Shown in pieces: positions 7,523 to 34,091 of a stretch of DNA of 64,000 nucleotides (position 1 is its first letter; the number at the start of each line of letters is the position of its first letter). The position numbers and the translations under genes are program-made. Where the stretch lies: NCBI RefSeq assembly GCF_000025725.1, contig NC_013943.1, positions 992,001 to 1,056,000 on the forward strand, written 5' to 3'. The notes beneath the pieces are model-generated. The model searched no databases, was not told the origin of the DNA, and was given only the letters and a program-made list of their open reading frames with translations. This stretch comes from Denitrovibrio acetiphilus DSM 12809 (GTDB lineage: Bacteria; Chrysiogenota; Deferribacteres; Deferribacterales; Geovibrionaceae).

Positions 7523-7544
7523 ATATATTATCAAGGAGACTGGT

Positions 7545-9281
7545 TTGAAAAATAAAGAACTGATAATGCTGTTGCTTAAATGGGCAGGCAGAGACAGGTA
7601 TTTACTGTATCTTTCAGTGATTCTGGCATTTATAAGCGGACTCTTTACTATGGTTCCGTATTACGCAGTTTACAGGATTATGGTAGCAGTTTATGCCCGG
7701 AACCTGACACAGCATGTCATTGTTGAGAATAGTATTATAATCCTTGCTGCAATGGCTTTGCGTTTTGCAATTTTCGGAGCGGCGGGGGCTGTTTCTCATA
7801 AGGGAGCATACAGAGCTTTGTTTAGAGTTCGCTGTATTGTTGTCGAGCATATGGCGAAAATTCCGCTGGGGGCTTTGAATACAAGAAGTATAGGGGATGT
7901 TAAAACTGTGCTTAACGAAGATATCGAAAAGCTGGAGCTGTTTCTTGCTCATCAACTCCCTGAGTTTGTCTATTACCTCATAGGTCCTTTTGCTGTGTTT
8001 GTTTATCTTTGTTTTGTCAATGCGCCCCTTGCTCTGGTCTCTCTGCTACCTTTGATTCTCGGAGGTGTAGCCATTGGGCTGATGTATAGAAGCTCCAGCG
8101 GCATGGTAAACCGCTTCAATGCCTCACTGGTGAGCCTTAACTCTGTGATGATAGAGTATATAAGCGGTATGAAGCTTATAAAAGCTTATAATATGGGGAG
8201 CAGTTCTTTTAGAAAATACGCCGATGCTATACAGGAAGAAAACGATGTGTGGATTGAAGGGGCAAAAAGTATGGGACCTCCTTATGCTGCATTTGTCGTT
8301 TTCATAGAATGCGGCATGATATTCATGGTTCCTTTTGGAGGCATGTTTTTCCTTAATGGTTCGATAACTGCCAGCGTATTTATACTGTTTATGTTTGTGG
8401 GAGGGATGTATCTGACCGAGGTGAGACCTCTTCATGAGCTGGGCAGTAACTTTGCAGATGTGCTGAAAGGCATTGAGAAAGCCAGGGAAGTGCTTGAAAT
8501 TCAAGTCTTTGAAGGCGGTGGAGAGTTTCCGGAGAAGCATGATATAGAGCTTAGAAACGTAACATTTTCATATGATGGCAGCAGCAATGTGATACGTGAT
8601 TGTAACCTGCAGATTTCTGATGGTGAAAAAATAGGTATTGCAGGGCGCTCCGGAGCTGGTAAAAGCACCATTGTTGAGTTGATATCCAGATTTTATGACG
8701 TTGATAAGGGGGAGATCCTTATCGGAGGCAAGGACATCAGAGATATCAATTATGAAATTCTTCTGCAAAACATTGCCATTGTTTTTCAGAAAACATTTCT
8801 TACCCGTGACAGCGTTTTTGAAAATATACGCATGGGTGCAAATGCAACTTTAAAAGAGGTTCGTGAGGCTGCTGTAAAGGCGCAGATTGACGATTTTATC
8901 ATGTCTCTTCCTGACGAATATGACACTAAAGTCGGGAGTTTTTCTACGAGATTTTCCGGTGGAGAAAAACAGAGAATAGCAATTGCAAGAGCTATTTTAA
9001 AGAATGCACCTATTCTCATTCTTGACGAGGCGACCGCTTCATCAGACCCTGAGAATCAGCTGGAGATAGACAAGGCGATATGCAACCTCTGCATGGGTAA
9101 AACCGTTATCATTGTTGCTCACCGCTTAGGAGTTTTGAAAAGCTGTGACAGGGTCGCTGTTATTGAAAATAGAAGAGTGACCACAATTGGATCTCATGAT
9201 GAGGTGCTGAAAAATAATGATTATTACAGACAGGCTTGGTCAGATTATGAAATTGCCAGAAATATTACTTATCAGTTATGA
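7545..9281 (+). CDS. Exporter-fold ABC transporter half, YbtP/YbtQ-like
   Basis: A 578-residue half-transporter: about six membrane helices in residues 1-300, then an ATPase with GRSGAGKST, FSGGEKQR, ILILDEATAS and the AHR switch. The start is a TTG at 7545 with AAGGAG six bases upstream; the frame is open further upstream but would run into the previous gene without a ribosome-binding site. Family knowledge: paired proteins of this fold (YbtP/YbtQ, IrtA/IrtB) import iron-siderophore complexes despite looking like exporters. It pairs with the next gene. Export of a metallophore is the alternative. Confidence 0.82.
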   Translation: MKNKELIMLLLKWAGRDRYLLYLSVILAFISGLFTMVPYYAVYRIMVAVYARNLTQHVIVENSIIILAAMALRFAIFGAAGAVSHKGAYRALFRVRCIVVEHMAKIPLGALNTRSIGDVKTVLNEDIEKLELFLAHQLPEFVYYLIGPFAVFVYLCFVNAPLALVSLLPLILGGVAIGLMYRSSSGMVNRFNASLVSLNSVMIEYISGMKLIKAYNMGSSSFRKYADAIQEENDVWIEGAKSMGPPYAAFVVFIECGMIFMVPFGGMFFLNGSITASVFILFMFVGGMYLTEVRPLHELGSNFADVLKGIEKAREVLEIQVFEGGGEFPEKHDIELRNVTFSYDGSSNVIRDCNLQISDGEKIGIAGRSGAGKSTIVELISRFYDVDKGEILIGGKDIRDINYEILLQNIAIVFQKTFLTRDSVFENIRMGANATLKEVREAAVKAQIDDFIMSLPDEYDTKVGSFSTRFSGGEKQRIAIARAILKNAPILILDEATASSDPENQLEIDKAICNLCMGKTVIIVAHRLGVLKSCDRVAVIENRRVTTIGSHDEVLKNNDYYRQAWSDYEIARNITYQL

Positions 9282-9294
9282 AGAGGGGGCTGTA

Positions 9295-11004
9295 ATGAGT
9301 AAGAATCCATTTAGGAAAAATAAGCATTTTTACGTTGGCGTTGTATTGAATATTCTGGAAGGCATACTGTCGGGATTTAATTTCTATTTCCTTTTTTCTG
9401 CTATGCAGATGCTTTGGGAGGGAGATGTCACTCTGGATAAAATCATGAGTCTGGTTTTGCTGCTGCTGTTTATATATGTTGTCAGGTTAATTGTTTACAG
9501 TACCGGATATACAATGTTTCATATTGGCGGGGCATTTGTCAGCAGACATGTTCGTCTGTTTCTGGGCGAGAAAATAAAGAAAATACCTCTTTCATGTTTT
9601 ACTCAGAAGCAGACAGGGGACTACATAAACGCTGTTACGAGTGATGTAAGTAACTATGAGAAAATTCTTACTCATAAAATCGGTGACATTATAAAAAACA
9701 TTTCTCTTTCACTGATGTTGGTTGGTTATGTTGGTGTCGTGTTGTGGGCTCCTGCGGGGGCAATTTTATTTCTTATGGAGCTTATGCTGCTTCCTGCTTT
9801 ATGGATGTCGTTTCGTATGGTCAGAAAATACGGCGTATTTAAGAATGAAATCTGTGTCAGGAGTGTCAGCGGTATTGTTGAATACATTTCGGGGATCCAG
9901 ACTTTCAGAGCCTATGGTATAGGCGGTATTAAAAATAAAGATGTGATTTCGGCGATGAAGGATTTCAGTGACATCGGGTATATTTATGAGTCGAAGATAA
10001 TTCCGATAGGTTCATTTTTCGGTGCGTTTATATGGGGGAGTGTTTCTCTTGTTATCTGTGCCGGAGCTGTTCCTCTTAAGGGGGGCGCTATAGATCCTGT
10101 TACTTACCTGATGATTATTATGCTTGCTGTTTTTCTGTCGAAATTGTGTGTAACGCTTTTCGTTGATCTGACATCTTATAAGCATCTGGCTGTATCAAAG
10201 GGGAAGATTATATCTGTTGTTAATGAAAAGGAAGAAAAAGGTATCGTTAAACCTTTTCAAACAGCCACTCATGAAGTTGTATTTGATAATGTCTGTTTCT
10301 CATATGTTGTGGGCGAACCTGTGCTGGAGGGAATTAGCTTCTGTGCTCCTGATAAAAGTCTGACTGCAGTAGTCGGTGATTCCGGCTGTGGTAAATCCAC
10401 CATTATGAATCTTATTTCTAAATACTATGAAGTTGAAAGCGGAAGCATTTCTTTCGGAGGTAAAAAGATTAACAACATTGCTGCTGAAAGAGTTTTGGAA
10501 AACATATCTATGGTGGATCAGGATGTTTTTTTATTTAATGATACTATTCGCAACAATATAAGATATGCACGTCCTGATGCTTCCGATAAAGAGATAGAAA
10601 ATGTTTGCAGGGAAGCTGGGTGTGAAGGGTTTATTTTAAATATGAAAAACGGTTATGATACTATGATCGGCGAAAATGGGAATCTTCTTTCAGGGGGGGA
10701 GCGTCAGCGTCTGTCTATTGCACGGGCGATATTGAAAAACAGCCCGATACTGATTCTGGACGAAGCTACCGCAAGTCTCGATATCGAAAACGAACTTGCT
10801 GTGAAACAAGCTGTTTTGAACCTGCTGAAACAGAAGAAAACGGTTATTATGATAGCTCATACCCTTGCTATAGTTAAAAATGCTGATGAAATTCTTGTTG
10901 TTGCTGACGGAAAAATAGCAGAACACGGCAAACACGCGGAGCTTATAGAAAAGAATGGCAAGTATGCTGCTATGTGGGACGCAGAACAACAGCTTTCTGC
11001 ATAA
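9295..11004 (+). CDS. Exporter-fold ABC transporter half, partner of the preceding gene
   Basis: A 569-residue half-transporter with about six N-terminal helices and an ATPase domain (GDSGCGKST, LSGGERQR, ILILDEATASLD, and AHT in place of AHR). The ATG at 9295 follows GAGGGGG. It starts 13 bases after its partner's stop and is the last gene of the operon. The two halves differ enough to form a heterodimer. With the upstream ECF module, the divergent regulator and the TonB receptor at 11101, it forms a probable metallophore uptake route. Confidence 0.82.
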   Translation: MSKNPFRKNKHFYVGVVLNILEGILSGFNFYFLFSAMQMLWEGDVTLDKIMSLVLLLLFIYVVRLIVYSTGYTMFHIGGAFVSRHVRLFLGEKIKKIPLSCFTQKQTGDYINAVTSDVSNYEKILTHKIGDIIKNISLSLMLVGYVGVVLWAPAGAILFLMELMLLPALWMSFRMVRKYGVFKNEICVRSVSGIVEYISGIQTFRAYGIGGIKNKDVISAMKDFSDIGYIYESKIIPIGSFFGAFIWGSVSLVICAGAVPLKGGAIDPVTYLMIIMLAVFLSKLCVTLFVDLTSYKHLAVSKGKIISVVNEKEEKGIVKPFQTATHEVVFDNVCFSYVVGEPVLEGISFCAPDKSLTAVVGDSGCGKSTIMNLISKYYEVESGSISFGGKKINNIAAERVLENISMVDQDVFLFNDTIRNNIRYARPDASDKEIENVCREAGCEGFILNMKNGYDTMIGENGNLLSGGERQRLSIARAILKNSPILILDEATASLDIENELAVKQAVLNLLKQKKTVIMIAHTLAIVKNADEILVVADGKIAEHGKHAELIEKNGKYAAMWDAEQQLSA

Positions 11005-11029
11005 GGTTTAATATAAAATAAACAAAAGA

Positions 11030-11057
11030 GAACCCCGGGGGATCCCGGGGATTCTAT
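11030..11057. terminator. Strong GC hairpin between convergent genes, terminator or IS200 end relic
   Basis: CCCCGGG, GGAT, CCCGGGG forms a perfect 7-bp stem between the end of the ABC operon and the convergent TonB receptor gene. The T run is poor. The stretch GAACCCCGGG....CCCGGGGATTCTAT closely resembles the right end of the IS200 element at 50290-50317, so it may be a relic of that element now acting as a bidirectional terminator. Confidence 0.5.
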
Positions 11058-11100
11058 CTTTTAACTGTATCCGTTGGAGAGTTCCTAGTTTAATTGATTA

Positions 11101-13131
11101 TCAGAACCTTAAATTTACGTTGGCTCCAACAGTCAGAGGGTTTCCGCTTCTGCCATACCAATTTCCGCTCATCTCAAATGCTCGTGTGGCGTATGCCTGA
11201 TCAAGAAGGTTGTCGACCCAGACATATACATCAAATCTTTCTGTTTCGTATCCGACTTTTGCGTTTATGATTTCATATGAAGTTTGTTCTTTCGAGTTCG
11301 CAGCATTATAATAAATTTTTCCTGTACCGTTGATTTCAGCATTTACAAACCAATGATCCATAAAACGCAAAACTCCCCCGAGAGAATATGTAGTATCCGG
11401 TGAGTTGGTAATTTTTTTACCTGAATAGTCCACACCGTTCAGGGTATAATCGTCAAATTCAGCATCCACATAGCCGAAGCTTCCGTATAGATTCAGCCAC
11501 GCAGCAGGGAGGAATCTTGCTTCCAGCTCCAGACCTTTACTGGTTGCTTCCGCTGCATTGTCAATTATGTAGTCAGGATATGACGGTTGTTCCACCTGCA
11601 TATCTGACCAGTCTATATAAAATGCCGCAGCGTTAACTACAAGTTTTCCGCCGGCAAGTTTGTTTTTAATGCCTACCTCATAGTTCCACGTATATTCTGA
11701 GTCGTATGATTTTCCAGGTTCTGAGCTGATGTTGAAGCCGCCGCTTTTAAAACCTTTGGCAATACTTATGTAAGATTGTGAATTGTCGTTTATGTTATAC
11801 ATCAGAGCAGCTTTAGGGAGGAGAGCTGTAAAGTCTTCTTCCGCAGAGCCTTTTACAGGGGTGTAACCCACCATTGCGCCTCCGGACCACTCATAGTCGA
11901 ACTCCTGATGTTCATTTTCATACCGAAGCCCGGCGGTTAATACAAACTTGCCTATTTTGTAGTCCATTTGACCAAATAAAGCAGCACTGCTTTTCTCTGT
12001 TTTTCCGTATTGGCTGGATACCACATTGTAAGTGAACATTGACATATCTATATTTTGTTTCTCTTCACTACTGTATAAATATGCACCTGTTCTCCATTTG
12101 AGCGGAGAGTTATCTTCTGAATTCAGTCTGAACTCCTGACTGAATATTTTAGAGTCTTTGCTCGTTTCCAGTTTCATCAGTTTATACTGGGTGAAATCCA
12201 GATCATTGTCATTGGAAGTATCTGCCCTTACGGCTGAGGTTATAGATGTGAATCTGACTTTCCCCATACCATAGTCGATTTTCAGAGATGAATTATATGT
12301 GTTGTTGCTCATGTCTCCAGGGTCGTCCACATTTACTTTCATGTCTCCGTCCATAACACTGTCGTATAATGCAAATTCTGCATAGTTCGCATCATATTCC
12401 TGATAACCGGATTTGAAATCTATAGTAAGGTCTGACGTTGGTTTGTATTTCAAAGAGAGCTTGCCATCGAAAGATTTGCTTTTATCTACGTCGTCACTTC
12501 TGTCTGCATCATTTTCAAAATAGCCGTCAGATGACGAGTATTTGCCAGTTAACCTTAGAAAAAGTTTATCGCGAATAATTGCTCCGTTACCTGCGACAAA
12601 CAAGCTCTTTGTGTTAAAACTGCCGTAGGATGTGTTGATGTCAGCACTCCATGTGTTTTTTGGTTCTTTGGTGATGATATTGATTACGCCTGCTTCTGTG
12701 TTACGCCCGTAGAGAGTCCCCTGAGGACCTCTCAAAACCTCGATCCTCTCTACATCTGAGAAGTTTATGTCGTAAAGCGGCTGGTAAACGTCATCAATAT
12801 AAAAGCCGAAGACTGAACCTCCGGTCATAAAAGATGTTATCCCTCTTATTGAAGCAATCTGGTCACTGCTTCCTGTTTGTCCCATCTTTGTGAAATGCAT
12901 ATTGGGGATTCTTTCAAAGATGTCTTCTGTGTTATTAATAGACCTGTCGCTGATATCGACAGACGTGAGAACAGAGACAGAATCCGGTATCTTCTGCATA
13001 TCTTCTTTTGTTTTATTCGCAGTAACTGTAACAGTATCCAGAGAAATTAAGTTATCAGGTTTAACAGTATCTTCAGCAAAACCGACAACAGCTGTCACCA
13101 GTGTAAAAAGCATTATTAACAGCTTTTTCAT
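11101..13131 (-). CDS. TonB-dependent siderophore-type receptor
   Basis: A 676-residue outer-membrane receptor. Signal peptide MKKLLIMLFTLVTAVVGFA, a TonB-box region (DTVTVTANKTKED), a plug domain with IDDVYQP...VERIEVLRGPQGTLYGRNTEAGVINIITK, and a beta-barrel ending in an aromatic residue (GANVNLRF). AAGGAGG precedes the start. Directly upstream on the same strand is an AraC-type regulator, an arrangement typical of FyuA/FptA with YbtA/PchR. The likely substrate is a ferric siderophore passed to the ABC proteins encoded at 4741-11004. Ligand specificity cannot be read from the sequence. Confidence 0.9.
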   Translation of the reverse strand: MKKLLIMLFTLVTAVVGFAEDTVKPDNLISLDTVTVTANKTKEDMQKIPDSVSVLTSVDISDRSINNTEDIFERIPNMHFTKMGQTGSSDQIASIRGITSFMTGGSVFGFYIDDVYQPLYDINFSDVERIEVLRGPQGTLYGRNTEAGVINIITKEPKNTWSADINTSYGSFNTKSLFVAGNGAIIRDKLFLRLTGKYSSSDGYFENDADRSDDVDKSKSFDGKLSLKYKPTSDLTIDFKSGYQEYDANYAEFALYDSVMDGDMKVNVDDPGDMSNNTYNSSLKIDYGMGKVRFTSITSAVRADTSNDNDLDFTQYKLMKLETSKDSKIFSQEFRLNSEDNSPLKWRTGAYLYSSEEKQNIDMSMFTYNVVSSQYGKTEKSSAALFGQMDYKIGKFVLTAGLRYENEHQEFDYEWSGGAMVGYTPVKGSAEEDFTALLPKAALMYNINDNSQSYISIAKGFKSGGFNISSEPGKSYDSEYTWNYEVGIKNKLAGGKLVVNAAAFYIDWSDMQVEQPSYPDYIIDNAAEATSKGLELEARFLPAAWLNLYGSFGYVDAEFDDYTLNGVDYSGKKITNSPDTTYSLGGVLRFMDHWFVNAEINGTGKIYYNAANSKEQTSYEIINAKVGYETERFDVYVWVDNLLDQAYATRAFEMSGNWYGRSGNPLTVGANVNLRF

Positions 13132-13214
13132 TAGTAACCTCCTTATTATTATGTCTGCTGAGGTTATGCCGGTTGACGGTTATAAAACTACCTGTAAGCG
13201 GATAAGAAGTGCTG

Positions 13215-14258
13215 TTATACGGATGATATTTGACTATAGGTCTTTTTCTGCCTGACAGAGCCTAGAAATTTTCCCGGAGTGACTCCGTAATATTTTCTGA
13301 ATACTGAAATAAAGTGGCTGACATTCGTGTAGCCAATATCCCAGGCAACATCACTGACACTTTTTGTTCCTGTTTCGAGCATTGCTTTTGCGTTTTCTAT
13401 GCGCTTTTCAAGTACATACCCGTATACTGTTTTACCGAATAATTCTTTAAATCCGGTTTTGAGTTTAAATTCATTGATTCCGGCTTTTTTGGCTATCTGT
13501 CTATGAGAGAGAGGCTGATGGAGGTTTTCCTCTATTATGTTTTTTATGTAATGAAATTTCTGGATATCTTCAGGTTGTATAGAGCATTTAGTGCATTCGG
13601 GGGACGTCAGGAAAAGTCCCATTAATATGTTAAAAAGAAGTTCCTGAGCCTTATTTGCCAGAATCAGATTTCTAAACGGGTGCTCTTTGCTGCACTGAGA
13701 GATGTTTTTAGCTGTTGCCATAACAGCCTGAGGCATTTTTGCAGTTATAAATCTGTGTGTATGCTTGTTTTTATAAAGACAGCTGTGGTATTTGATGCTG
13801 CAGTTCCCCAGAGTATTTCTGAGCATTATCTGAAGAAGGTGTGGGTCTATGAAAAGCTGTATGAATTCTACAGGTGTACCTGCTGATTTGTGACAAAATC
13901 CTTGACCGCTGGCTGTTGCTCCAAAGATAATATTGCCCTTTCTTATTTTTTCAGACCCGTTCATTTCTGTATTTTTGTAAAAATACTCAACATCTCCCTG
14001 AAGCCAGCATTCAAATGAAAAAGGTGCTTTTTCAATATCGAAATGCATATAAAATTCTTTATCTGCGGGTATTTTGATAATATTAAGAAGCATGCCGGGC
14101 TGTACTCTGATAGTTTCTACATGTTGCGTCATTTCATTTAAAGAAATGCATGGGTCGTATATGTTTTCCGTCGATCTATGTTCGTGAATCCTGTTTTTTT
14201 CAAACAAGTTATATTCTTGTGAGGTCGTAACGCTTATGAACTTTGATTTATTTTCCAT
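13215..14258 (-). CDS. PchR-like AraC-family regulator
   Basis: A 347-residue regulator with the C-terminal AraC double HTH (LSHRQIAKKAGINEFKLKTG and SVSDVAWDIGYTNVSHFISVF, then YGVTPGKFLG). The central region (GQGFCHKSAGTPVEFIQLF) resembles the sensor part of PchR-type siderophore regulators. GGAGGG precedes the ATG and a 16/19 Fur-box match lies 51 bases upstream, so the gene is probably iron-repressed and activates the receptor gene downstream. It is the second AraC regulator of this locus. Confidence 0.85.
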   Translation of the reverse strand: MENKSKFISVTTSQEYNLFEKNRIHEHRSTENIYDPCISLNEMTQHVETIRVQPGMLLNIIKIPADKEFYMHFDIEKAPFSFECWLQGDVEYFYKNTEMNGSEKIRKGNIIFGATASGQGFCHKSAGTPVEFIQLFIDPHLLQIMLRNTLGNCSIKYHSCLYKNKHTHRFITAKMPQAVMATAKNISQCSKEHPFRNLILANKAQELLFNILMGLFLTSPECTKCSIQPEDIQKFHYIKNIIEENLHQPLSHRQIAKKAGINEFKLKTGFKELFGKTVYGYVLEKRIENAKAMLETGTKSVSDVAWDIGYTNVSHFISVFRKYYGVTPGKFLGSVRQKKTYSQISSV

Positions 14259-14308
14259 GAAGCACCCTCCGTGCTCTTTACCATTAGTAATGCAGAATAG
14301 CAGTTATT

Positions 14309-14327
14309 GATAATGATAGTCAATATT
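14309..14327. promoter_or_regulatory. Fur-box candidate before the PchR-like gene
   Basis: GATAATGATAGTCAATATT matches the 19-bp Fur consensus at 16 of 19 positions, including the first ten in a row. It lies 51 bases upstream of the AraC-type start at 14258. Confidence 0.72.
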
Positions 14328-14781
14328 AATTATATAGCGTATAATGACAGTGATTTAAGGGAGTAATTTATTGGCCAACGTCTTAAGATAGTTTAATAAA
14401 GGGAGGTCGTGAGCTCCAGCTCGGGCTGTTTCTATTTTATAAATAATCTTTAAGTTTTGGCTGTCAGTTCCGGAGCTTTTTGTCTTTTGTTAATATTTCT
14501 TAATATTAGCCGTTGCTGACATGTTTGTCTTATGTGAATGTAGATACACAAATTTGAGGTAGTGGAAAATTATAGCTATAGAATATTTTTTCTTATTACT
14601 TCATGCTTTTAGTGTTGTGTGGTAGATAATGTTGATATTTTATTTCAGTTAAACTGTCGTAGTGTGAATTTTGTTTATATGGCAGAATCTGTCTAATATG
14701 CTCGTCTTTAAATTAAATCTATAGTGTAAGTTTATCAGTAGTTAAATCATTTTTGTGTAACGTTAATGTAAGTCATTAAAT

Positions 14782-14800
14782 GATATTGATTATCAGTATA
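14782..14800. promoter_or_regulatory. Fur-box candidate at the head of the 16-gene operon
   Basis: GATATTGATTATCAGTATA matches the 19-bp consensus at 15 of 19 positions. In the 7-1-7 form TGATATT-G-ATTATCA matches TGATAAT-n-ATTATCA at 13 of 14. It lies 206 bases before the lipoprotein start at 15006, so a promoter here would give a leader of up to about 200 bases. Confidence 0.7.
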
Positions 14801-15005: not shown

Positions 15006-18000
15006 ATGAAGAAACTTTTGTTATTCATGATTCCTGTAATTATGATAATAACAGCCTGTGGCGGCGGAGGCGGAAGCAGTTCCGGCGGCGATACAGGCGG
15101 AGATACGGGCGGCGATACAGAGCCTACCACTAAGACCATTGGCGGTCTTGTTTCCGACCCGGCAATATCAGGGGCTGTAGTTGAGCTTCGGTTGAAATCA
15201 GACGATTCTGTCGCTGTTATATGTGGTACTACAGGTTCGCTTCCTTGTAAGACATTTACAGACGAAGATGGCTTGTTTGACATGATTTTACCGATAGGCG
15301 CTGACCTGACAGCTTATTACATAAAATCCTTTGGCGGTTTTGATACTGTAACAAACATCAACATGGAGTCCTTCTCTTTCGAGTCCCCGATAGAAGCTTT
15401 CTCTGAAAACACAGATAATATTGTAGTTTCGCCGGTGACAACCATCATGCGTGCAAGTTCAGATACTACTGTCGCAGGGATGAAAGCTCACGCCAGAAGT
15501 GTTCTTGGTCTTTCTGATACAGCGGATCCTGCCGCCGACCCTGCAACTGACGGCGAACTCTTTAAAAAATCTTACATGCTTATTACGCTCGCCTCAACAT
15601 ATCGGGACATGTTGAGTGCCTCCGGTTCTTCAACAGCAGGAGAGCCGTTTTCTGTAATATCTGCTGTGACGCTTAGCGGTGCATTATTTACTGCCGATTC
15701 AGAGCTTGATGATACTTCTCTTACAGAAATTTATAAGAGTTTTGCCGGCAACGATGGTTATGACGATGATATTGATGAGCTGAAATCTACAGCTGTATCT
15801 ATAGAAGACGTTGACAGTACAGGAGATGTTGTTGCCGCTCTGATTGACAAAGAGATCAACAGGCTTTTCAAAGTCGCTGTTATGACTCTTGCGGATGATA
15901 CTCCTGTAACGGTCACTGATACTTTCATTACTAATATTGAAGCATATGTTGACGCTGTGCAGTCTTTGTCCGAGGGGCTTGCGGCCGATAGGTTTATGAT
16001 TAACCAGATAGCTAGATATACCATGCTCAGTGATTACGGTCTTACATCCTATGCTGATTTTACTGCCGACACTTTCAGTGCGAGTCTTTCTGCTATGATC
16101 GCAGATGATGCTTTTGGCACAGCAGTGACAGCGGTTTTAGAATCCGGTCCTACTTATATAGTCAGTGTTCCTCTCAGTGACAGTGACCTCCCCGGTGACG
16201 ACAACGCAAAGAGAGCTGCTTATTATTACAATTCAAACCTTGATGTAGGTTATAAAGCGAGGAAGCTTGCAAGTGATATCAAAGACGATGATCTGAATGA
16301 TGACATAAATCTTGTCGCAGTCAGAAACTATGCACAAGCAGGGCTTAATGCTAAGGCAAAAAGTATTGCTGATTCGCTGATAGTCAAAACACTTAATCAG
16401 TCAAATGCTTATCGCAATATTGCAAAGAATAATACTACGCTTGGTGGTGATCTCGCTGAATCCGTAACTTATTTACAGAAAGCGGAATCACTTATAAGAG
16501 GTCTCCATGATACTGCGACTGCAGAGCCTTTTACAACCAGCGAAGCTAAAGAACTTGCTGACATAATGGAAGAATATATGAGCGCAGGCGATTTGGAAAA
16601 AGCTGCTTCTCTGGAATCCTATATGGACACTGTACTCGCCGACTTGGATGAAAGCGAGAAAGGTAGTGCATACAGTGCTGTGGTTAGTGCTTTCAATTCG
16701 GTTGTTAAAGATGATGTGGAAAATGGCGAGCTGGATAATGTTGAAGCTATGACTGATAAGATTGTTAAATATGTTGATAATCTTTCTCTTGGAACCAAGG
16801 AAGGCAAGATTTATGCAACGCAACTTGTGTTTCTGCAAAATGCATTAATATTTTACAATGCCGTAGGTGCTTCGCAGAAAGTTGTAGATACTTACCATAA
16901 TATTATTAAAGATATGATCACTTTCGACTCCTCTTCGGGTAAAACTAACTGGGAATTTTATGCTTCAAAAATGACAGGACCTCTCTATAGAGCAGGGGAC
17001 AGTTCTGCTGCAATGGATCTTTTGGGGTCAATTACAAAATCTAACTATGCCGCAAATGCGGCGGAGTCTATAATTGTTGGCGTATATAAAGATGACTTTG
17101 ACGAAGCTGTTTCGATTTATGAAGCAGGTGTGCCTATGGATACGGACTTCGACAACATAGCAGACTACATAAACTCATGGACTTATTTAGCTTCTAACCG
17201 TAGCAGTCAGGGGATAGCTATGTATGCCCTGAATGACGGTCTGAATGACCTTGCAGAGAAAGCTGTAGACTACACTGAGAGTAAAATGGATGCGGCGGTT
17301 CAGTATTTCAAAGATAATAATTCTGATTTTGCAGAATATCTTGTGAAAATGGTGACCTCACAAAATAGATTTTATGAAACAGGATATGTGAAGAATGCAT
17401 ATCTTTATAATGAACTGGGGCTGAAGACAAAAGCTCTTGCCTCAATACAAAAAGCTATAGACTATGCAGATTTGTGTGTTGATTCGGTAAATAAGGCAAC
17501 GGCGTACAGTACAATAGCATACTACGCTATGCTTATTGACCCAGCCTATGATGCTTCTCCTCTGTTTGCAAAGGCAAGGACTGTTTTCGATAATGCTTCA
17601 GGTGATACGGCATTTTCTAATGATAATCTGTTTAATATAAAATTTGGTATTGCTGATGATTATATTTTACAAGGGGATACAGCTACTGCTCTTCTGACTA
17701 TGGAAGAGGCAGTTAACTATGCTGAGCTTACTCATCAGCCAGGTGTTGGCACAGAAGAAGATAAAGCTGTAGTCAATGAGTCTGAGAACTTCAGAAAACT
17801 TGCGGAATGGTACTACACCATGCAGGACATGGGGAAAGCTAAGCTGATGCTCGAAAAGTCTGCGGCTGTGGCGCCTCAGCATTCAAAAGCGAGCTCGGTA
17901 AGTGGTCAGTACAAACAAATTCTGCAAAAGTATGCTCAGTTTGGTCTGTATGATCTCGGTTATGAAAAAGCCAAAGTAATGTTCCCTGTACGTGGTGACT

Positions 18001-18224
18001 TCATCAAAGGGATGGAGGATTTTATAGGGGCAATGCTTAATGTTGATGATTTCGATAAGATAGATGTTGCTTCCAGAGACCTTGACAAAGACGGCAAGCC
18101 TGACTTCTTTCACCTGTCTGCTACAGCGGAAGAGATAGCTGCATCCGGTCTTGTTCTCGATGATGACACTGACGGTGACGGCGTGGCTGATGTACTTGAT
18201 GCTACACCGTTTTATGCTGATTAG
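15006..18224 (+). CDS. Large surface-type lipoprotein with helical repeats and Ca-binding C-terminus
   Basis: A 1072-residue lipoprotein: lipobox ITAC with Cys18, then a Gly/Ser/Asp-Thr linker with GGDT repeats. Residues about 40-150 look like a small beta domain (GGLVSDPAISGAVVELRL...). From about residue 390 to 1010 the protein is a long helical solenoid with TPR-like stretches (for example AFSNDNLFNIKFGIADDYIL). The C-terminus has two Asp-rich calcium-binding loops, DLDKDGKPDF and DDTDGDGVADVLD. AAAGGAGA precedes the start. It is the first gene of a 16-gene operon and lies 9 bases before a TonB receptor. The inferred role is a ligand-capturing partner of that receptor. No named family recognised. 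Confidence 0.8.
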   Translation: MKKLLLFMIPVIMIITACGGGGGSSSGGDTGGDTGGDTEPTTKTIGGLVSDPAISGAVVELRLKSDDSVAVICGTTGSLPCKTFTDEDGLFDMILPIGADLTAYYIKSFGGFDTVTNINMESFSFESPIEAFSENTDNIVVSPVTTIMRASSDTTVAGMKAHARSVLGLSDTADPAADPATDGELFKKSYMLITLASTYRDMLSASGSSTAGEPFSVISAVTLSGALFTADSELDDTSLTEIYKSFAGNDGYDDDIDELKSTAVSIEDVDSTGDVVAALIDKEINRLFKVAVMTLADDTPVTVTDTFITNIEAYVDAVQSLSEGLAADRFMINQIARYTMLSDYGLTSYADFTADTFSASLSAMIADDAFGTAVTAVLESGPTYIVSVPLSDSDLPGDDNAKRAAYYYNSNLDVGYKARKLASDIKDDDLNDDINLVAVRNYAQAGLNAKAKSIADSLIVKTLNQSNAYRNIAKNNTTLGGDLAESVTYLQKAESLIRGLHDTATAEPFTTSEAKELADIMEEYMSAGDLEKAASLESYMDTVLADLDESEKGSAYSAVVSAFNSVVKDDVENGELDNVEAMTDKIVKYVDNLSLGTKEGKIYATQLVFLQNALIFYNAVGASQKVVDTYHNIIKDMITFDSSSGKTNWEFYASKMTGPLYRAGDSSAAMDLLGSITKSNYAANAAESIIVGVYKDDFDEAVSIYEAGVPMDTDFDNIADYINSWTYLASNRSSQGIAMYALNDGLNDLAEKAVDYTESKMDAAVQYFKDNNSDFAEYLVKMVTSQNRFYETGYVKNAYLYNELGLKTKALASIQKAIDYADLCVDSVNKATAYSTIAYYAMLIDPAYDASPLFAKARTVFDNASGDTAFSNDNLFNIKFGIADDYILQGDTATALLTMEEAVNYAELTHQPGVGTEEDKAVVNESENFRKLAEWYYTMQDMGKAKLMLEKSAAVAPQHSKASSVSGQYKQILQKYAQFGLYDLGYEKAKVMFPVRGDFIKGMEDFIGAMLNVDDFDKIDVASRDLDKDGKPDFFHLSATAEEIAASGLVLDDDTDGDGVADVLDATPFYAD

Positions 18225-18233
18225 GTAATATCT

Positions 18234-20771
18234 ATGTTTAATACATTTGTTAATATGAGGGTGGCCGCTTATGCGGTCATCCTTTTCATTATGGTGACAT
18301 TTCCTGTATGCGCAGAAGAAAAACAGGATACCGGGCTTTCCTCTGCTGAGCTTGAAAACATGCTTGTGATAGATGAAGTGGAAGTCAAAGGTGAGCTGAC
18401 CGAAGAGTCTATAGAAGGCAAAACTGTTATTAATGAAGAAACTATAAAAATGCTTCCCAGAGGTAACGGCGACATAACAGAAGCTCTGCGTATTGCTCCC
18501 GGAGTGCAGTTTGATGATGATTACAGAGATTCTTTGACTGCCGGCGAGATCGAGCCCGGGCGGATTTCCATATCCGGTGGGAAGGATTACCAGAACCTTT
18601 TTATGCTCGACGGTATGAGCAATTCAAGTATTCTGAACCCCGCAGAAGAAAGTATTTACGATACTGATAATGTCTCCGGAAACCCTCAGAAGTTTTTCAT
18701 AGATTCCTCAATAGTTAAAAAGGTTACAGTTTTCGACAGTAACGTTCCGGTGAAGTACGGCGGTTTTCTCGGCGGTGTTGTGGATGTGGAAACCATAGAC
18801 CCTACTCAGAATGTATGGGGGAATATTTCTTACCGCACAACAAGATCTGAGTGGGCTAACTTTTATGTAGATGAAATTAAGCAAGACGATTTTGAAAACT
18901 CTAATGACTCGCAAAAGGGGCAGCCGAAGTTTGAAAAGCATCATTTCAATGCAACTCTTAATACCCCTGTAACAGATAAGCTGGCTGTGGTTTTTAATTA
19001 TAAAAAGCTCGAATCAACTATACCTGTCAGGTTTTATAATAAGTGGCAGGATGAAGAGCGCCTTAACGAAACATTTCTGGTGAAAGGTCTGCTGAATATC
19101 AGCAGTTCCAGCTATCTGGATGCCACTGTCAGTTATGCTCCTTATAAGCAGAAAATATATTTCCCGAATGTCAAAAACAGCGGGTTTGATGTACATGGAG
19201 GCGGCTACTACGCTGCTGTGAATTATACAAAAGAGAGCGGTGACTCAAAGCTGGAAATACATGCAGATTATTCTGTGTCTGAAAACAGCAGAGACGCTTC
19301 AAATGTTTTCTATCACTGGGCAACGACATCGTCTAAAGACTGGGGATATATGAAAGACCCTAGTTCTGTAAGTGAAGGTAGCGTTGGCGGTAGTTATGAA
19401 GGCGGTTACGGCGACCTTTATAAAAGCGAATCTGTATTCAACTTTAAGCTGGATCATGATCCTTTCCGCTTTAAGTTTGGCGGTGACCATGTTGTTTCAT
19501 ACGGTTTTCACTATTCAAACATCAAAGGCATAATGGACAAAAGCGAATCAAGCTATCTGTACAAAGACCCGGTAGTGGATTCTGATGTTATATGTGGAGG
19601 GCAGCAGGGTGTGGACTGCCTTGAAGGGGAACAGTATTTTTCAGAGAAAACAATAGCACCTTCTTTTAAAAATGAAGCACTTATTAATACCGTAAACTTT
19701 TATGCGCAGGACGAATATGATATATGGCGTCTGAACTTCAGGCTTGGGCTCCGCTATACTTATGATGATTATATGGAGAACCATGACATAGCACCGAGAA
19801 CATCTTTTGAGTATGATATTTTCGACAGCAAGAGAACAGTTCTGCTTGCCGGATATAACAGATATTACGGTACAAATCTTCTGGATAATAAGCTTCGTGA
19901 AGAACAGCCTGATGATCTGGAATATATACGCTCAACCTACCGCAATGAAGTGCAGGACTGGATTACAGTTACCCCTGCCGTAGATACTGTTTATAAATAC
20001 AGCGATCTGAACACCCCTTATTCTGATGAATATATGGTCGGTGTTGCCCAGTACCTTTTGGGCGGAACACTAAATCTTAAATATATCACAAGAGATAACA
20101 AAGACGAGTTTGCCAGCGAGATTTATAGTGTCAATGGCAAGAAATACAGAAAGCTGAACAACAATGGTGAAAGTTCATTTGAATCATTTCAGATAAAATG
20201 GGACAGATCATGGAAAAATCACTATGTAATGCTTAATGCCATGTGGCAGGAGTCTGAAACTGCGCAGGATAGTTATGATGATGAGTATGATCTGGAAGAC
20301 CTTGATAAAGATATCCTTTATAACGGCAGTAAAATAAAGCTTGCCGAACTTCCGAAAGATAATTTTAACAGACCGATTACCGTTAATCTTACTTATACAG
20401 GGAAATTTTTTAAACACTTAAGTGTTTCTCCCGTTATTAAATACCGCTCATCATACAGAGATATACGGCTTGTTAACGGTTCTCAGATTATCGGGACTAC
20501 CGGAGAGACGGACCCTGAGACAGGGGCTGTTGAGTATAAAACAATCGCATCTTATAAAGATGTGACATTCAATCACAGTGTTCTCGTTGACCTGCGTTTT
20601 TCCTGGGAACAACCTGTGTATAAAACTCATACAATCAAAGTTTCCTTTGATATCAATAACCTTTTCGACAGGAAGATTGTGAAGGGGTACGGTTCAACAT
20701 CTGATTCTGAAATGTATGAAGAATATGAGCTCGGAAGAAGCTTCTGGGCAGGGGTTGAATATGCATTCTGA
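18234..20771 (+). CDS. TonB-dependent outer-membrane receptor of the Fus-like operon
   Basis: An 845-residue receptor with a signal peptide (cleavage after VCA), an N-terminal segment with the possible TonB box MLVIDEVEVKGEL, a plug domain (GRISISGGKDYQNLFMLDGM, VKKVTVFDSNVPVKYGG) and a long beta-barrel ending ...WAGVEYAF. The plug lacks the common GxxGxxxIRG form and instead resembles receptors with a carboxy-rich, non-siderophore-type plug. Larger barrels of this kind often take polymers or proteins. The ribosome-binding site is weak; translation may be coupled to the lipoprotein ending 9 bases upstream. Its last 11 bases overlap the ABC ATPase gene. Confidence 0.88.
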   Translation: MFNTFVNMRVAAYAVILFIMVTFPVCAEEKQDTGLSSAELENMLVIDEVEVKGELTEESIEGKTVINEETIKMLPRGNGDITEALRIAPGVQFDDDYRDSLTAGEIEPGRISISGGKDYQNLFMLDGMSNSSILNPAEESIYDTDNVSGNPQKFFIDSSIVKKVTVFDSNVPVKYGGFLGGVVDVETIDPTQNVWGNISYRTTRSEWANFYVDEIKQDDFENSNDSQKGQPKFEKHHFNATLNTPVTDKLAVVFNYKKLESTIPVRFYNKWQDEERLNETFLVKGLLNISSSSYLDATVSYAPYKQKIYFPNVKNSGFDVHGGGYYAAVNYTKESGDSKLEIHADYSVSENSRDASNVFYHWATTSSKDWGYMKDPSSVSEGSVGGSYEGGYGDLYKSESVFNFKLDHDPFRFKFGGDHVVSYGFHYSNIKGIMDKSESSYLYKDPVVDSDVICGGQQGVDCLEGEQYFSEKTIAPSFKNEALINTVNFYAQDEYDIWRLNFRLGLRYTYDDYMENHDIAPRTSFEYDIFDSKRTVLLAGYNRYYGTNLLDNKLREEQPDDLEYIRSTYRNEVQDWITVTPAVDTVYKYSDLNTPYSDEYMVGVAQYLLGGTLNLKYITRDNKDEFASEIYSVNGKKYRKLNNNGESSFESFQIKWDRSWKNHYVMLNAMWQESETAQDSYDDEYDLEDLDKDILYNGSKIKLAELPKDNFNRPITVNLTYTGKFFKHLSVSPVIKYRSSYRDIRLVNGSQIIGTTGETDPETGAVEYKTIASYKDVTFNHSVLVDLRFSWEQPVYKTHTIKVSFDINNLFDRKIVKGYGSTSDSEMYEEYELGRSFWAGVEYAF

Positions 20772-21654
20772 TAATATCGTAGAGATCAAAAATCTTGAGC
20801 ATTCATACGGCAAGAATAAAGTTCTGCATGGACTCAGTTTTAATGTACGGAAAGGTTCAATCTTCGGGCTGCTTGGTAAAAACGGTGCAGGCAAAACAAC
20901 CTCTATCAACATCATGATGGGCTTTCTGCGTCCGGACAGCGGGAGCTGCCTGATACTTGGGGAAGAAGCACACAGTTTGAGCAGTGATGCCAAGCGGAAA
21001 ATAGGGCTTCTGCATGAAGGGCACCTTTCATATGAGTTTCTCAGCATTGCAGAGACAGAAGAGTTTTACGAAGGGTTTTACCCTGCATGGGACAGTGATG
21101 TTTATAACGACATGATAAATAAGCTGAAACTGAAACGTACGCATAAGATAAAAAACATGTCATGTGGGCAGAGGTCTCAGGTTGCGCTTGCTGTCCTGAT
21201 GGCACAGGGTGCAGAGATTCTCATATTGGATGATTTCTCTATGGGGCTTGATGCAGGGTATCGGAGGCTTTTCCTTGATATGCTCACTCATTATTCAAAA
21301 CAGCTGAACAAAACTGTGATGATTACCTCGCATATAGTGCAGGATCTGGAGCGCTTTGTGGATGATGCCCTGATAATAGAAAAGGGTGTTGTGCTTAAAA
21401 AAGCTCCCATTGGCGAGCTGAAACAGGGGCTGAACAAATTTTTCTTCTGCGCCGACAGTTTGCTTTCAAACATGGATGCAATGGATTTTGTGCATGATTA
21501 TTCTGTGTTAAACAGAGGTTACGAGATCGTGACAGGTCTTGATGCTGATAAAACAGCAGAGAGACTTAGTTGTCTTACATCCGGCATGACTGGGTTCGAA
21601 CAGCGGGAATTATCTCTGGAAGATGCTTTTATCGCACTTACAGGGAAATATTAG
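20761..21654 (+). CDS. ABC transporter ATPase with altered signature and Walker B
   Basis: A 297-residue ABC-2-type ATPase: Walker A GKNGAGKTT, signature MSCGQRSQ instead of LSGGQ, and Walker B LILDDFSMGLD, where the catalytic Glu is Asp. The C-terminal 80 residues form an extra domain as in CcmA/YtrB-like ATPases. The start at 20761 follows AGGGG and overlaps the receptor gene. It pairs with the permease and the DUF4857-like protein that follow. A role in energising export or a mechanochemical step at the inner membrane is possible; reduced ATPase activity is suggested by the Asp. Confidence 0.8.
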   Translation: MHSDNIVEIKNLEHSYGKNKVLHGLSFNVRKGSIFGLLGKNGAGKTTSINIMMGFLRPDSGSCLILGEEAHSLSSDAKRKIGLLHEGHLSYEFLSIAETEEFYEGFYPAWDSDVYNDMINKLKLKRTHKIKNMSCGQRSQVALAVLMAQGAEILILDDFSMGLDAGYRRLFLDMLTHYSKQLNKTVMITSHIVQDLERFVDDALIIEKGVVLKKAPIGELKQGLNKFFFCADSLLSNMDAMDFVHDYSVLNRGYEIVTGLDADKTAERLSCLTSGMTGFEQRELSLEDAFIALTGKY

Positions 21655-21661
21655 GTGAAAC

Positions 21662-22327
21662 ATGTTTAAAAGAATTTTCAAAAAAGAATATAAAAAACTG
21701 CGATATGTCGTACTGGGGGCGTTCCTCCTTAATGTTGGCCTGGTGGTAAAGATGTGTCTGAACACAAGGGCGGCATTTACTCTTAATCCGTCTGTGAATG
21801 TCTGGCTGGATATCATTGAGCAGAACAGCCTCTTCTTCAGCAGTGTTTCTGACGTTTTACAGGCAAGTGCTGTTATCATAGGCTTCATGCAGTTTCTGCC
21901 GGAGGTGGAGAAAAAACGTTTCCGGATATCCTGTCATCTGCCTGTGAGCGAAGCGGGGATGATATTTGCTATGACTGCCGCAGGTATAATATTTATCTCG
22001 GCTATCGCTCTGTTTGATATGGCGTGTATAAGCGCAATGGGCAGAGTATATTTTCCCGAAGATATAAACAGTGCTGTAACACCAATCTTTTTTGCAGATT
22101 TCATGGGAGCTGTCGTTTTGTATATCTATGCTGTGGTGATAACTCTGGAACCGCATAAGCTGAGAAAAGCTATGCTGGTGGTTATCCTTTTTCCGCTTAC
22201 CGGCTTGTTTGCAGGAGAAGGCTATAGGATATACGACGGTGAGCTTATCCCTTTTGTCTTTTTAATGTGTCTGATAGTCCCTATCGTTCTCAGCCCTGCG
22301 TATAGGTTCAGAAAGGGGGATTTCTAA
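21662..22327 (+). CDS. ABC-2-like membrane protein partner
   Basis: A 221-residue membrane protein with about six hydrophobic segments and a basic N-terminus (KRIFKKEYKKLRYVVLG), like the first helix of ABC-2 permeases. No family signature is clear. It begins 7 bases after the ATPase gene and overlaps the next start (TAATGA), so it is most likely the permease subunit of that ATPase. Confidence 0.7.
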   Translation: MFKRIFKKEYKKLRYVVLGAFLLNVGLVVKMCLNTRAAFTLNPSVNVWLDIIEQNSLFFSSVSDVLQASAVIIGFMQFLPEVEKKRFRISCHLPVSEAGMIFAMTAAGIIFISAIALFDMACISAMGRVYFPEDINSAVTPIFFADFMGAVVLYIYAVVITLEPHKLRKAMLVVILFPLTGLFAGEGYRIYDGELIPFVFLMCLIVPIVLSPAYRFRKGDF

Positions 22328-23577
22328 TGAAATATTTATCAAGATATATAGTGTTGATAGTCGCTTTTCTTGGGCTGACAACAGTATTGCCATCTCTGTA
22401 CAGAGTTGCATTTGCTGATTATAAACCCCATAGGTCTGTGACCTTTAGCCCAGTTGTTGATGATTTCTTCTACGTTTCCGTGGAGAAAAATGTTGGTGTC
22501 ACATACACGGATGCGGCGGGTAATGAATACAGCAAGATTGACTATTATCATGCCAAACCTTTTCTTTATGCCAGAAACCTTGTGCGCTGGGGGACATACC
22601 CGACACTTATCGCCGGGAAGTATATTCCGGCTGATGAGGTAAGCAAAAATCTGTACTTTTTCGGCATAAGACCGAAGAGGGTTGACATAGAGCTGAACAG
22701 GATTCCTCTTTATCCTCTTTATGAGTCTTCAGGCGAGTTTACACAGCTCGAGATACCGAACGACCTCTTCCGGATTAGCGGCAGAATGGAGTTTATCAGC
22801 GGAATGACAAGGGGGGTTGATTCCGAAAAGAGCGAACTTTTTACTTCTGCACTGACAAAAGCCGGATTTAGCTTTCCTGCTCAGGGAATTTTCGGCAACA
22901 CAAACTTTAAGAAACCATATGATTTCGGCTATTTTGCTGAAGACGCAAAAGGCGATATCTTTCATATAAAACAGCTTCACGGCAAGCCGTTTGTGAGGAA
23001 TACAAATAAACCGGCTGGGGCTGATTTTGAATATATTTCTGTTTCAGAGGACTATGCAAACCCTTCTTATGGAGTGTTTGTAACTGAGTCAGGTGACGTC
23101 TACAGGCTGGAAAAGAACGGATACGAGTATAAGCGTTTTGATGTGGGACAGATAGATGTCCGTGAGCAGTATCTGCGTGTGTTCGGAGATCCTCTTTATA
23201 CATATGTGACAGTGAGGGACAAGGACAAAACTGAAATGTATGTCTTCCACAAGGATGACACCCTTTACAAGAAGCACATAATTGAAGAAGTCAGTTCACT
23301 TTCACCTTTTTTCGAAGCCGGCTATGACGCTGTGTTCCCTTTTACTTTGCGAACTTTTGAGCCGAAAGCCTTTAAGCATCATCTGTATCTGGAGCCGTCT
23401 GAGAGGGTTGGGCTGGCTGTAATGTTTTCCGCTGTGCTGGCGATGCTGTACGCTGGAATCATGATGTTCAGGCGTAAAAGTATGAAGATGGCGGCAGCGG
23501 ATTCAATATTTGTACTCATCGGCGGGCTGATACCTTTTGTACTGCTGCTTCTGATGGGGAGTGAAAGAAGAAGATGA
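22327..23577 (+). CDS. DUF4857-like membrane-anchored protein
   Basis: A 416-residue protein with one N-terminal membrane segment (YIVLIVAFLGLTTVLPSLY), a periplasmic region of about 300 residues rich in beta structure, and two C-terminal membrane helices (VMFSAVLAMLYAGIMMF and FVLIGGLIPFVLLLLMG). It resembles DUF4857 proteins that accompany an ABC ATPase/permease pair near TonB receptors in Bacteroidota; that assignment is from memory and moderate. The architecture suggests an inner-membrane protein presenting a periplasmic domain to incoming substrate. Overlaps both neighbours. Confidence 0.65.
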   Translation: MKYLSRYIVLIVAFLGLTTVLPSLYRVAFADYKPHRSVTFSPVVDDFFYVSVEKNVGVTYTDAAGNEYSKIDYYHAKPFLYARNLVRWGTYPTLIAGKYIPADEVSKNLYFFGIRPKRVDIELNRIPLYPLYESSGEFTQLEIPNDLFRISGRMEFISGMTRGVDSEKSELFTSALTKAGFSFPAQGIFGNTNFKKPYDFGYFAEDAKGDIFHIKQLHGKPFVRNTNKPAGADFEYISVSEDYANPSYGVFVTESGDVYRLEKNGYEYKRFDVGQIDVREQYLRVFGDPLYTYVTVRDKDKTEMYVFHKDDTLYKKHIIEEVSSLSPFFEAGYDAVFPFTLRTFEPKAFKHHLYLEPSERVGLAVMFSAVLAMLYAGIMMFRRKSMKMAAADSIFVLIGGLIPFVLLLLMGSERRR

Positions 23578-24320
23578 AAAACATATTTGCAGTGATATTG
23601 CTTCTGCTTTCTGCGTCTGCATATGCGGAGACAGCAGGAGAGATACTGAATACTCAGAAAAGTATTCACAGCATAAAATCTAAGTTTTATGAAGAGAAAG
23701 AGGAGTGGGACAAAGACAAGCTGAATATGGAAGAACGCTATGGCGCTTTGACAAGGGCTGTGGAGGCACGGGAGGCATATCTTTTAAACCTGAAAAAGAT
23801 AAATGAAGAGCTTGCGGGTGAGCTTGAACGGAAGAAGACAAAAATGACCTCTGCAAAAGGGGTTGAACGTCGCCTTGATATCCTTCTGGCTGACATGCTT
23901 ATGAAGCTTCAGAGGCATATTGAGTCAACTTCCGGTTATACATATGACCAGCGTATGCAGAGTTTAGAGGAGATGATGCGCCTGAATGCTGATCCGGAGG
24001 TTAAACCACAGGAGAAGATAAGGCGTGTTGCCGAGCTTTTTATGGTGGAGGCGGATCTTGCCCGCTTTGCAGAAGTATACGAAGAGAAGGTAACTTTGAA
24101 TGGAAAAGAGATCTCCGGGTATCTTCTGCGTCTGGGAGCTCTTGGACAGTTTTTTACAACACCGGATAAGAGAAGAGCAGCCGTTTATGACCCCGCACAG
24201 AATGGATTTACAGAGATAGATCAGAGGTATGCACAGGAGATCATGAAAGCTGCAAGGATAATAGAGAAGAAAGCTGCACCGGAGCTTGTGCACCTTCCTG
24301 TGGGGAGGCTTCAGCGATGA
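23574..24320 (+). CDS. DUF3450 periplasmic coiled-coil protein of the TonB2 system
   Basis: A 248-residue exported protein: signal peptide ending AYA, then a long coiled coil (about residues 20-130) and a C-terminal globular part (LRLGALGQFFTTPDKRRAAVYD). This matches DUF3450 proteins, which are encoded first in TtpC-type TonB2 clusters. Gene order DUF3450-TtpC-ExbB-ExbD-TonB-TPR is exactly the one known from Vibrio and Shewanella. It overlaps both neighbours by 4 bases. The molecular role is unproven; it probably supports the energy-transducing complex in the periplasm. Confidence 0.85.
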   Translation: MKNIFAVILLLLSASAYAETAGEILNTQKSIHSIKSKFYEEKEEWDKDKLNMEERYGALTRAVEAREAYLLNLKKINEELAGELERKKTKMTSAKGVERRLDILLADMLMKLQRHIESTSGYTYDQRMQSLEEMMRLNADPEVKPQEKIRRVAELFMVEADLARFAEVYEEKVTLNGKEISGYLLRLGALGQFFTTPDKRRAAVYDPAQNGFTEIDQRYAQEIMKAARIIEKKAAPELVHLPVGRLQR

Positions 24321-25660: not shown

Positions 25661-26168
25661 GAATCTTTTAATGCTGGCAACAGAGAACCCTGTGCATACG
25701 ATGATCTTCCTTATCACATTCTACATGTGGTACTGCATCTTCGACAGACTCATTGTTTATGCAGGTCTGTTTCGCAGGAATTCTGAGGGTGAGCGGAGTA
25801 TTGCTGTTCTTACAAGGGAGCGCATCATGAGCCGGGGCTCGTCCGCCGAAGTTGAGCTGAATATCATAGGCAGAATGATTTCCAGAAACTTATCAGTAAT
25901 AAAGGTAAGCACAGTGATAGCGCCTATGCTTGGTCTTCTGGGCACGGTATGGGGTATGCTCATCACTTTTAACATAATCTCCGACAACGGCACGGGTGAC
26001 CCTGCCCTTATGTCGGACGGGATATCCAAAGCTCTTACGTCCACAAGGCTGGGGCTTACGGCTACGGTTTTCGGAATGCTTATGGCTGCGGTGCTGGAGC
26101 GTATGAGGCGCAAGCTGACCGCTTATGCCGGAGCGGAAAGTATCAGAAACGGCAGGTCGGTTATATGA
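25650..26168 (+). CDS. exbB: ExbB proton-channel subunit
   Basis: A 172-residue MotA/TolQ/ExbB-family protein with three membrane segments and the conserved IAPMLGLLGTVWGMLI and LTSTRLGLTATVFGML motifs. With ExbD it harvests the proton gradient to drive TonB. The short length is typical of ExbB2. Overlaps ttpC and exbD. Confidence 0.9.
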   Translation: MMPENLLMLATENPVHTMIFLITFYMWYCIFDRLIVYAGLFRRNSEGERSIAVLTRERIMSRGSSAEVELNIIGRMISRNLSVIKVSTVIAPMLGLLGTVWGMLITFNIISDNGTGDPALMSDGISKALTSTRLGLTATVFGMLMAAVLERMRRKLTAYAGAESIRNGRSVI

Positions 26169-26572
26169 GAAGGATATCCTCTAAAAAGAGTACAGGCGCA
26201 GATGAACTGAATATGACTCCGATGATAGACCTTATCTTTCTGCTTCTGGTATTTTTTATAGTTACCACCTCTTTTACAAAAGAGACAGGGGTAGACGTTG
26301 CCCGACCGGCAGCAAAAACGGCTGAAAAGAGTGAAGCTCTGACAGTTATGATGGCGATAGATGATACAGGAGCGGTTTTTCTTGAGAAAAAGCAGATAGA
26401 TGTAAGAAGCATAAGAGGGAGGATGAGCGCTCTCTCTTCGGATAATCCGGATATTAGTGTCATGCTTGTGGCAGACAGGAAAGCTAATGTGGAAGATGTT
26501 GTTGCTGTTATGGATCAGTGCCGTCTTGCCGGAGTGGAGAAGATAAGCCTTTCCGCTGAAAAGAAGTTCTGA
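26165..26572 (+). CDS. exbD: ExbD energy-transducing subunit
   Basis: A 135-residue ExbD/TolR protein: one N-terminal membrane helix containing the essential Asp in MTPMIDLIFLLLVFFIV, followed by a periplasmic domain. It forms the proton path with ExbB. It overlaps exbB by 4 bases and precedes tonB by 2. Confidence 0.92.
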   Translation: MRRISSKKSTGADELNMTPMIDLIFLLLVFFIVTTSFTKETGVDVARPAAKTAEKSEALTVMMAIDDTGAVFLEKKQIDVRSIRGRMSALSSDNPDISVMLVADRKANVEDVVAVMDQCRLAGVEKISLSAEKKF

Positions 26573-26574
26573 AT

Positions 26575-34090: not shown

Positions 34091-34091
34091 C

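Follow-up and report, generated by a model that had tools for sequence, protein, structure and literature searches.

A solenoid lipoprotein encoded beside a FusA-family receptor in Denitrovibrio acetiphilus is probably a dedicated subunit of a protein-scavenging system

What is the function of a 1072-residue lipoprotein whose gene lies directly before that of a TonB-dependent receptor? This question is raised by a protein, here called LP, encoded in a 64,000-nucleotide stretch of Denitrovibrio acetiphilus DSM 12809 (contig NC_013943.1, positions 992,001 to 1,056,000), referred to below as the window. An earlier note had read LP as a lid or capture protein of the cell surface. The LP gene (15006-18224, forward strand, as are all genes of its operon) begins with an ATG at 15006 and ends with a stop at 18222-18224; ORF, translation and lipobox agree exactly with the coordinates, frame and 1072-residue lipoprotein described earlier. 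Full-length homologues with 26-35% identity exist in other Deferribacterota, indicating that LP is not a chance ORF. The signal peptide (residues 1-17) and lipidated Cys18 (15006-15059; lipobox IITA followed by C18) lead into a Gly/Ser/Asp run, GGGGGSSSGGDTGGDTGGDT, which forms a tether at residues 19-40 (15060-15125; pLDDT <50 for residues 1-38). A valid lipobox is present in all 20 aligned homologues and the +2 residue is G, S, T or L, which excludes Asp-type retention in the inner membrane. The homologues are also all acidic, with a pI of 4.05-5.5 in 20 of 20.

The fold of LP was predicted with high confidence by AlphaFold2 using an alignment of 20 homologues (pLDDT 86.9, pTM 0.84, compared with 77 and 0.59 when 11 were used), and only residues 1-38 of the model are disordered. 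The model reproduces the order proposed earlier, namely a beta domain, a long TPR-like solenoid and two Asp-rich loops. The N-terminal beta domain (residues 42-128, 15129-15389) is carboxypeptidase-regulatory-like, with a sub-threshold CarboxypepD_reg match in 4 of 20 members, and its C73/C81 pair is invariant across the 11-member Deferribacterota set. It is followed by a helical solenoid of ~45 helices (residues 129-1011, 15390-18038), the TPR-like character of which is weak but real: TPR_12 matches residues 831-906 (E 2.5e-5; 24.8 bits, below the curated cut-off of 30.1) and 7 of 20 members at E up to 0.1, and the family profile finds designed PPR/TPR chains in the PDB at ~1e-9. Within the solenoid, residues 389-440 (16170-16325) form a conserved block, PGDDNxKRxxYYxNSxxDxxYxAR...NDxI, in which G397, N400, R403, Y406, S410, D428 and D432 are invariant across the 20 sequences. 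According to the conservation profile this block comes second only to the C-terminal loops, most positions of which are invariant: an FG-GAP-like loop, DLDKDGKPDF (D1025-F1034, residues 1025-1034, 18078-18107), and a thrombospondin type 3-like loop, DDDTDGDGVADVLDATP (D1052-P1068, residues 1052-1068, 18159-18209). Both are modeled at pLDDT 84-93, and most of their Asp and Gly residues are invariant across 20 sequences from four bacterial groups. TSP_3 (E 0.006-0.15) and FG-GAP gave sub-threshold matches in all five C-termini scanned, and the loop pair probably binds calcium. The two loops of the earlier note exist and are highly conserved; that they bind calcium is inferred.

The impression that LP belongs to no known family held up, since HMM searches found no Pfam, NCBIfam or PDB entry that covers it. 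Pfam returned nothing beyond sub-threshold matches, TPR among them, and NCBIfam returned no relevant match. The single sequence found no relative in the PDB (phmmer), on plasmids or in genome contigs; only an alignment-based scan of genome contigs succeeded. Foldseek, run with two LP models, retrieved only generic helical-repeat proteins with a query-normalised TM of at most 0.19. Sub-threshold matches to Glyco_tran_WbsX (E 0.003) and TbpB (E 0.64) were judged to be due to chance.

The receptor gene (18234-20771) starts 9 bp downstream of LP, in keeping with the placement reported earlier. A profile built from 15 orthologues matched FusA, the ferredoxin receptor (4zgv, E 3.5e-181), and YddB (6ofr, E 2.9e-117), both end to end, while the next-best PDB entries matched the plug domain only (E 1e-5). 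By this measure it is a protein importer of the FusA/YddB family rather than a generic TonB receptor, and the profile result rules out a siderophore or sugar receptor. Members of the FusA family take up intact proteins that carry iron. Plasmid-borne relatives of the receptor, E. coli YddB of yddA-yddB-pqqL among them, have M16 protease genes and ABC or TonB genes as neighbors. The generic receptor context given in the earlier note therefore fell short in missing the FusA/YddB identity, the downstream protease and the peptide importer; the tie between LP and receptor that it pointed to proved much stronger than its reader could have known.

That tie was surveyed in 727 genomes (51 Deferribacterota, 229 gammaproteobacteria, 247 from the Desulfatibacillum phylum and 200 from the Arcobacter class). 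Full-length LP was found in 20, beside a FusA-type receptor in 18 and separated from it by an assembly break in two (the Deferribacterota genomes G031 and G035, where contig ends fall between the genes). Within the Deferribacterota, FusA and full-length LP co-occur in the same 14 of 51 genomes and neither is present elsewhere. Outside this group, where LP searches were run regardless of the presence of FusA, full-length LP occurs in 3/229 gammaproteobacteria (one of them, G198, divergent and matching model positions 386-1059 only), 2/247 members of the Desulfatibacillum phylum and 1/200 of the Arcobacter class, each time adjoining FusA; in G711 FusA lies directly downstream of LP. The 21 loci from the contig scan agree wherever the contig extends far enough. 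LP carriers thus include Deferribacterota, Desulfobacterota/Desulfuromonadales, Campylobacterota and Gammaproteobacteria. A search for homologues that lie apart from TonB receptors found none of full length. In the reverse direction, other FusA-family receptors without LP are present in at least 31 genomes (29 Campylobacterota, 2 gammaproteobacteria), and some of these LP-free Campylobacterota systems keep M16, TonB, ABC and DUF4857 genes beside the receptor. At L072 4207-5730 and L073 1-726, LP-free Campylobacterota receptors adjoin genes that read as PepSY-type inner-membrane proteins, which hints at a release of iron by reduction.

Downstream of the receptor lie an ABC-2 type ABC ATPase (20716-21654; Pfam ABC_tran E 4e-23), kept next to FusA, its membrane partner (21662-22327; no Pfam match, conserved position) and a DUF4857 membrane protein (22327-23577; PF16149 E 4.7e-93). 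These are followed by a TonB energiser module (23574-28358), identified by Pfam as DUF3450, TtpC-like ExbB, ExbB, ExbD, TonB and TPR proteins, whose TonB (TonB_C E 3.5e-22 at 26575-27255) would take the role of FusB. A PqqL/FusC-type M16 protease (28348-31179) matches PqqL (6ofs, E 1.8e-92) and FusC (6b03, E 4.5e-40) over its full length and carries the zinc motif HFVEH at residue 87. Next comes a YejABEF-type oligopeptide ABC importer (31176-36697), recognized by Pfam as SBP_bac_5, two permeases and a double ATPase, and in both Deferribacterota and Arcobacter operons this importer comes after the M16 and energiser genes. Together these genes would encode a complete pathway for protein import and digestion.

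Other Deferribacterota repeat this operon order, but the energiser comes in two kinds. Comparison of window positions 23574-28358 with loci L062, L063 and L065 showed DUF3450-TtpC-ExbB-ExbD-TonB-TPR or plain ExbB-ExbD-TonB according to genus; the module seems to have been exchanged in place. In a Mucispirillum-like MAG, YejA is present as two adjacent ORFs (L063 10490-12304), reflecting a frameshift, a stop or an assembly error. Arcobacter possesses the same genes, but its M16 gene precedes the TonB genes. A distant relative (G001) is reduced to LP, FusA and the ABC ATPase; in Desulfatibacillum there is no M16 or Yej gene within 14 kb from the LP end; and in gammaproteobacteria and a Desulfuromonadales MAG only LP and FusA are found, with no M16, TonB or ABC gene within several kb. 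LP-FusA is thus the only constant pair, with M16, Yej and energiser genes varying across loci. The existence of LP-FusA pairs without M16, and of M16 systems without LP, indicates that LP's partner is the receptor rather than the protease. LP most likely acts at the receptor, because its distribution follows the receptor's instead of that of the protease, energiser or ABC genes. LP is probably a dedicated, previously undescribed subunit of one FusA-family branch within a protein-scavenging machine.

On the receptor tree, the presence of LP requires 2 changes, compared with 9.8 when labels are shuffled. A single LP-bearing clade is not rejected (AU p 0.207), and a single origin of LP on this tree is neither shown nor rejected. 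The LP and FusA trees have 10 of 13 splits in common, and the differing splits are weakly supported. Median identity is 28% for LP, 42% for FusA and 68% for YejB, putting LP with the operon's fastest-evolving genes. Such a rate would be expected if LP faces the substrate, but periplasmic and membrane components encoded in the operon evolve fast as well. In Ectothiorhodospira, two LP genes flank one receptor (LP-FusA-LP; L047 3992-13180, L051 9881-18991). These paralogues are ~36% identical to each other and kept in two species, having diverged anciently.

The operon belongs, as far as its gene content can tell, to the protease-associated import systems described for Pectobacterium FusABCD and E. 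coli YddB-PqqL-YddA (PMC6793856). In common with these it has a FusA-family receptor end to end, a PqqL/FusC-type M16 protease with HxxEH, a TonB gene in the cluster and a sign of iron control; the defining receptor and protease were both tested for and found. In contrast to the Fus systems, it adds the solenoid lipoprotein, the ABC-2/DUF4857 module and the Yej-type peptide importer, and it lacks a FusD/YddA-like fused ABC transporter, having separate ABC-2-type genes and the Yej importer instead. This absence does not bar membership because the FusD/YddA component varies within the published family (PMC6793856). The same 2019 survey dealt with Proteobacteria; the words lipoprotein, tetratricopeptide and Deferri- are absent from its main text (PMC6793856).

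A second comparison is with SusCD/RagAB, with which LP shares a lipoprotein gene directly beside that of a TonB-dependent receptor, a helical TPR-type fold and a plausible lid or capture role. However, LP's receptor belongs to the FusA family and not to SusC, and LP is about twice the size of SusD and occurs outside the Bacteroidota. The SusD/RagB Pfam models gave no match to LP at E up to 1, and the SusD model was absent among the 25 families listed for 20 LP members at E up to 0.1. No usable profile match supported SusD, HmuY or TbpB as a home for LP, bearing out the earlier opinion that it is unrelated in sequence to SusD and HmuY. HmuY, XusB, BtuG and TbpB resemble LP in being lipoprotein partners of TonB-dependent receptors, in their case for iron, heme or cofactor uptake, but they are beta folds or propellers whereas LP is a solenoid. 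TPR/PPR solenoids show local repeat resemblance (~1e-9), and Foldseek found no solved structure with the global shape of LP.

Iron is likely to be the prize of LP-FusA import. This is suggested by a Fur-box-like site, TGATATTGATTATCA (14781-14795, forward strand), located 210 bp before the LP start with 1 mismatch to TGATAATNATTATCA (shuffling the same 350 bp gives P 0.005), and by a locus of B. thetaiotaomicron that encodes a TonB receptor together with DUF4857 and ABC genes and whose expression rises 37-128-fold on iron starvation (PMC10434189). Only about one third of the LP genes tested have a clear Fur-like box upstream, and as a general feature of LP loci it was not upheld. The window holds further uptake genes. 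Positions 7473-14258 contain a pair of genes for ABC exporter-like ATPase/permeases (7473-11004), a second TonB receptor gene (11101-13131, reverse strand) and an AraC-family regulator gene (13215-14258, reverse strand), with another Fur-like site at 14308-14322, and look like a siderophore uptake island next to the LP operon. By sequence and BLAST, positions 43056-48765 (reverse strand) hold an uptake cluster with ABC ATPase, permease, binding-protein-like and methyltransferase-like ORFs and a TonB receptor. Positions 59942-61387 encode a 481-aa lipoprotein (lipobox TSC followed by GGGVGSS) with no Pfam match.

Based on these observations, we favor with moderate confidence a model in which LP is a dedicated subunit of the FusA branch that captures substrate, most likely at the outer face, for FusA-type import. 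By analogy with SusD, HmuY and TbpB, capture at the surface would most likely be its role. LP is predicted as a helical superhelix of strongly acidic character that opens with the beta domain and closes with the Asp loop pair, which probably binds calcium. Its flexible Gly/Ser/Asp tether would anchor it in the outer membrane through the lipid on Cys18, most likely at the receptor's outer face or above the receptor. There it may capture a protein or large peptide, probably iron-bearing. Passage through the receptor would next be powered by TonB. The PqqL/FusC-like protease would digest the substrate in the periplasm, the resulting peptides would be taken up by the Yej-type importer, and the ABC-2/DUF4857 module would deal with the iron or cofactor set free. 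The occurrence of an M16 protease and a Yej-type importer in one operon points to proteins or long peptides as cargo, as it does for Fus (PMC6793856). Since FusA and YddB function with no LP, the barrel may also capture substrate by itself.

The most serious rival would keep LP as a subunit of the receptor, anchored in the outer membrane, but place it on the periplasmic face, as a receiver or scaffold that grips the emerging substrate or aligns receptor, TonB and protease. We consider this less likely, but it has to be taken seriously because sequence alone fixes no membrane face. The periplasm is the default fate of Lol-sorted lipoproteins, and the G/S/T/L residues at +2 agree with ordinary outer-membrane sorting. 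There are also precedents: BamD and PilW-type TPR lipoproteins are periplasmic, and TSP3-like loops also occur in the periplasmic linkers of OmpA-type proteins. A scaffold for M16 and TonB, however, is made unlikely by the persistence of LP at loci without protease or TonB genes and by its absence from systems that have them; a receiver of substrate remains compatible with this distribution.

Would LP need to touch the substrate at all? Its restriction to one receptor branch and the short LP-FusA spacing in most loci would suit a factor that folds, assembles or gates the barrels of that branch, but 1000 residues would be large for such a role and the two ~36%-identical LPs per receptor in Ectothiorhodospira fit two binders better, making this explanation improbable. 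It is more improbable still, to the point of being very doubtful, that LP lies in the operon by coincidence alone and does something that has nothing to do with import. In favor of this, the N-terminal module of LP (~180-300 residues) is present in many unrelated lipoproteins away from receptors and is, by its distribution, a widely reused lipoprotein head. Campylobacterota lipoproteins of ~1070-1850 aa, for example, carry only the N-terminal 260-300 residues of LP and have no adjacent TonB receptor (L080 6637-9840, L084 5232-10049, L085 8808-13892, L087 4536-10088). Nevertheless, the pairing of LP with FusA is kept across four large bacterial groups despite changing neighbors, and no full-length LP without a FusA receptor was found in the 727 genomes.

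Fus-type receptors import whole folded proteins, and to our knowledge substrate recognition by them is known for ferredoxin only. In the main texts of the openly accessible journal papers searched, we found no description of the LP family or of an operon with the whole pipeline, and no lipoprotein partner of Fus-type receptors. What appears to be new here is the solenoid lipoprotein family and the import-digest-uptake operon; protease-associated import as such was already known. The LP family tracks one receptor branch through four bacterial groups, and its operon joins import, proteolysis and peptide uptake. Cultivable carriers in which the substrate could be sought include D. acetiphilus, the host of the window, as well as Arcobacter and Marinobacter. 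More tentatively, LP and its receptor may represent a SusCD-like importer that evolved independently outside the Bacteroidota, in which a large calcium-stabilized solenoid lipoprotein clamps or lids a FusA barrel and feeds whole proteins to a protease-and-peptide-import pipeline encoded in one operon. This raises the question of whether importers built as a lipoprotein on a barrel have arisen more than once.
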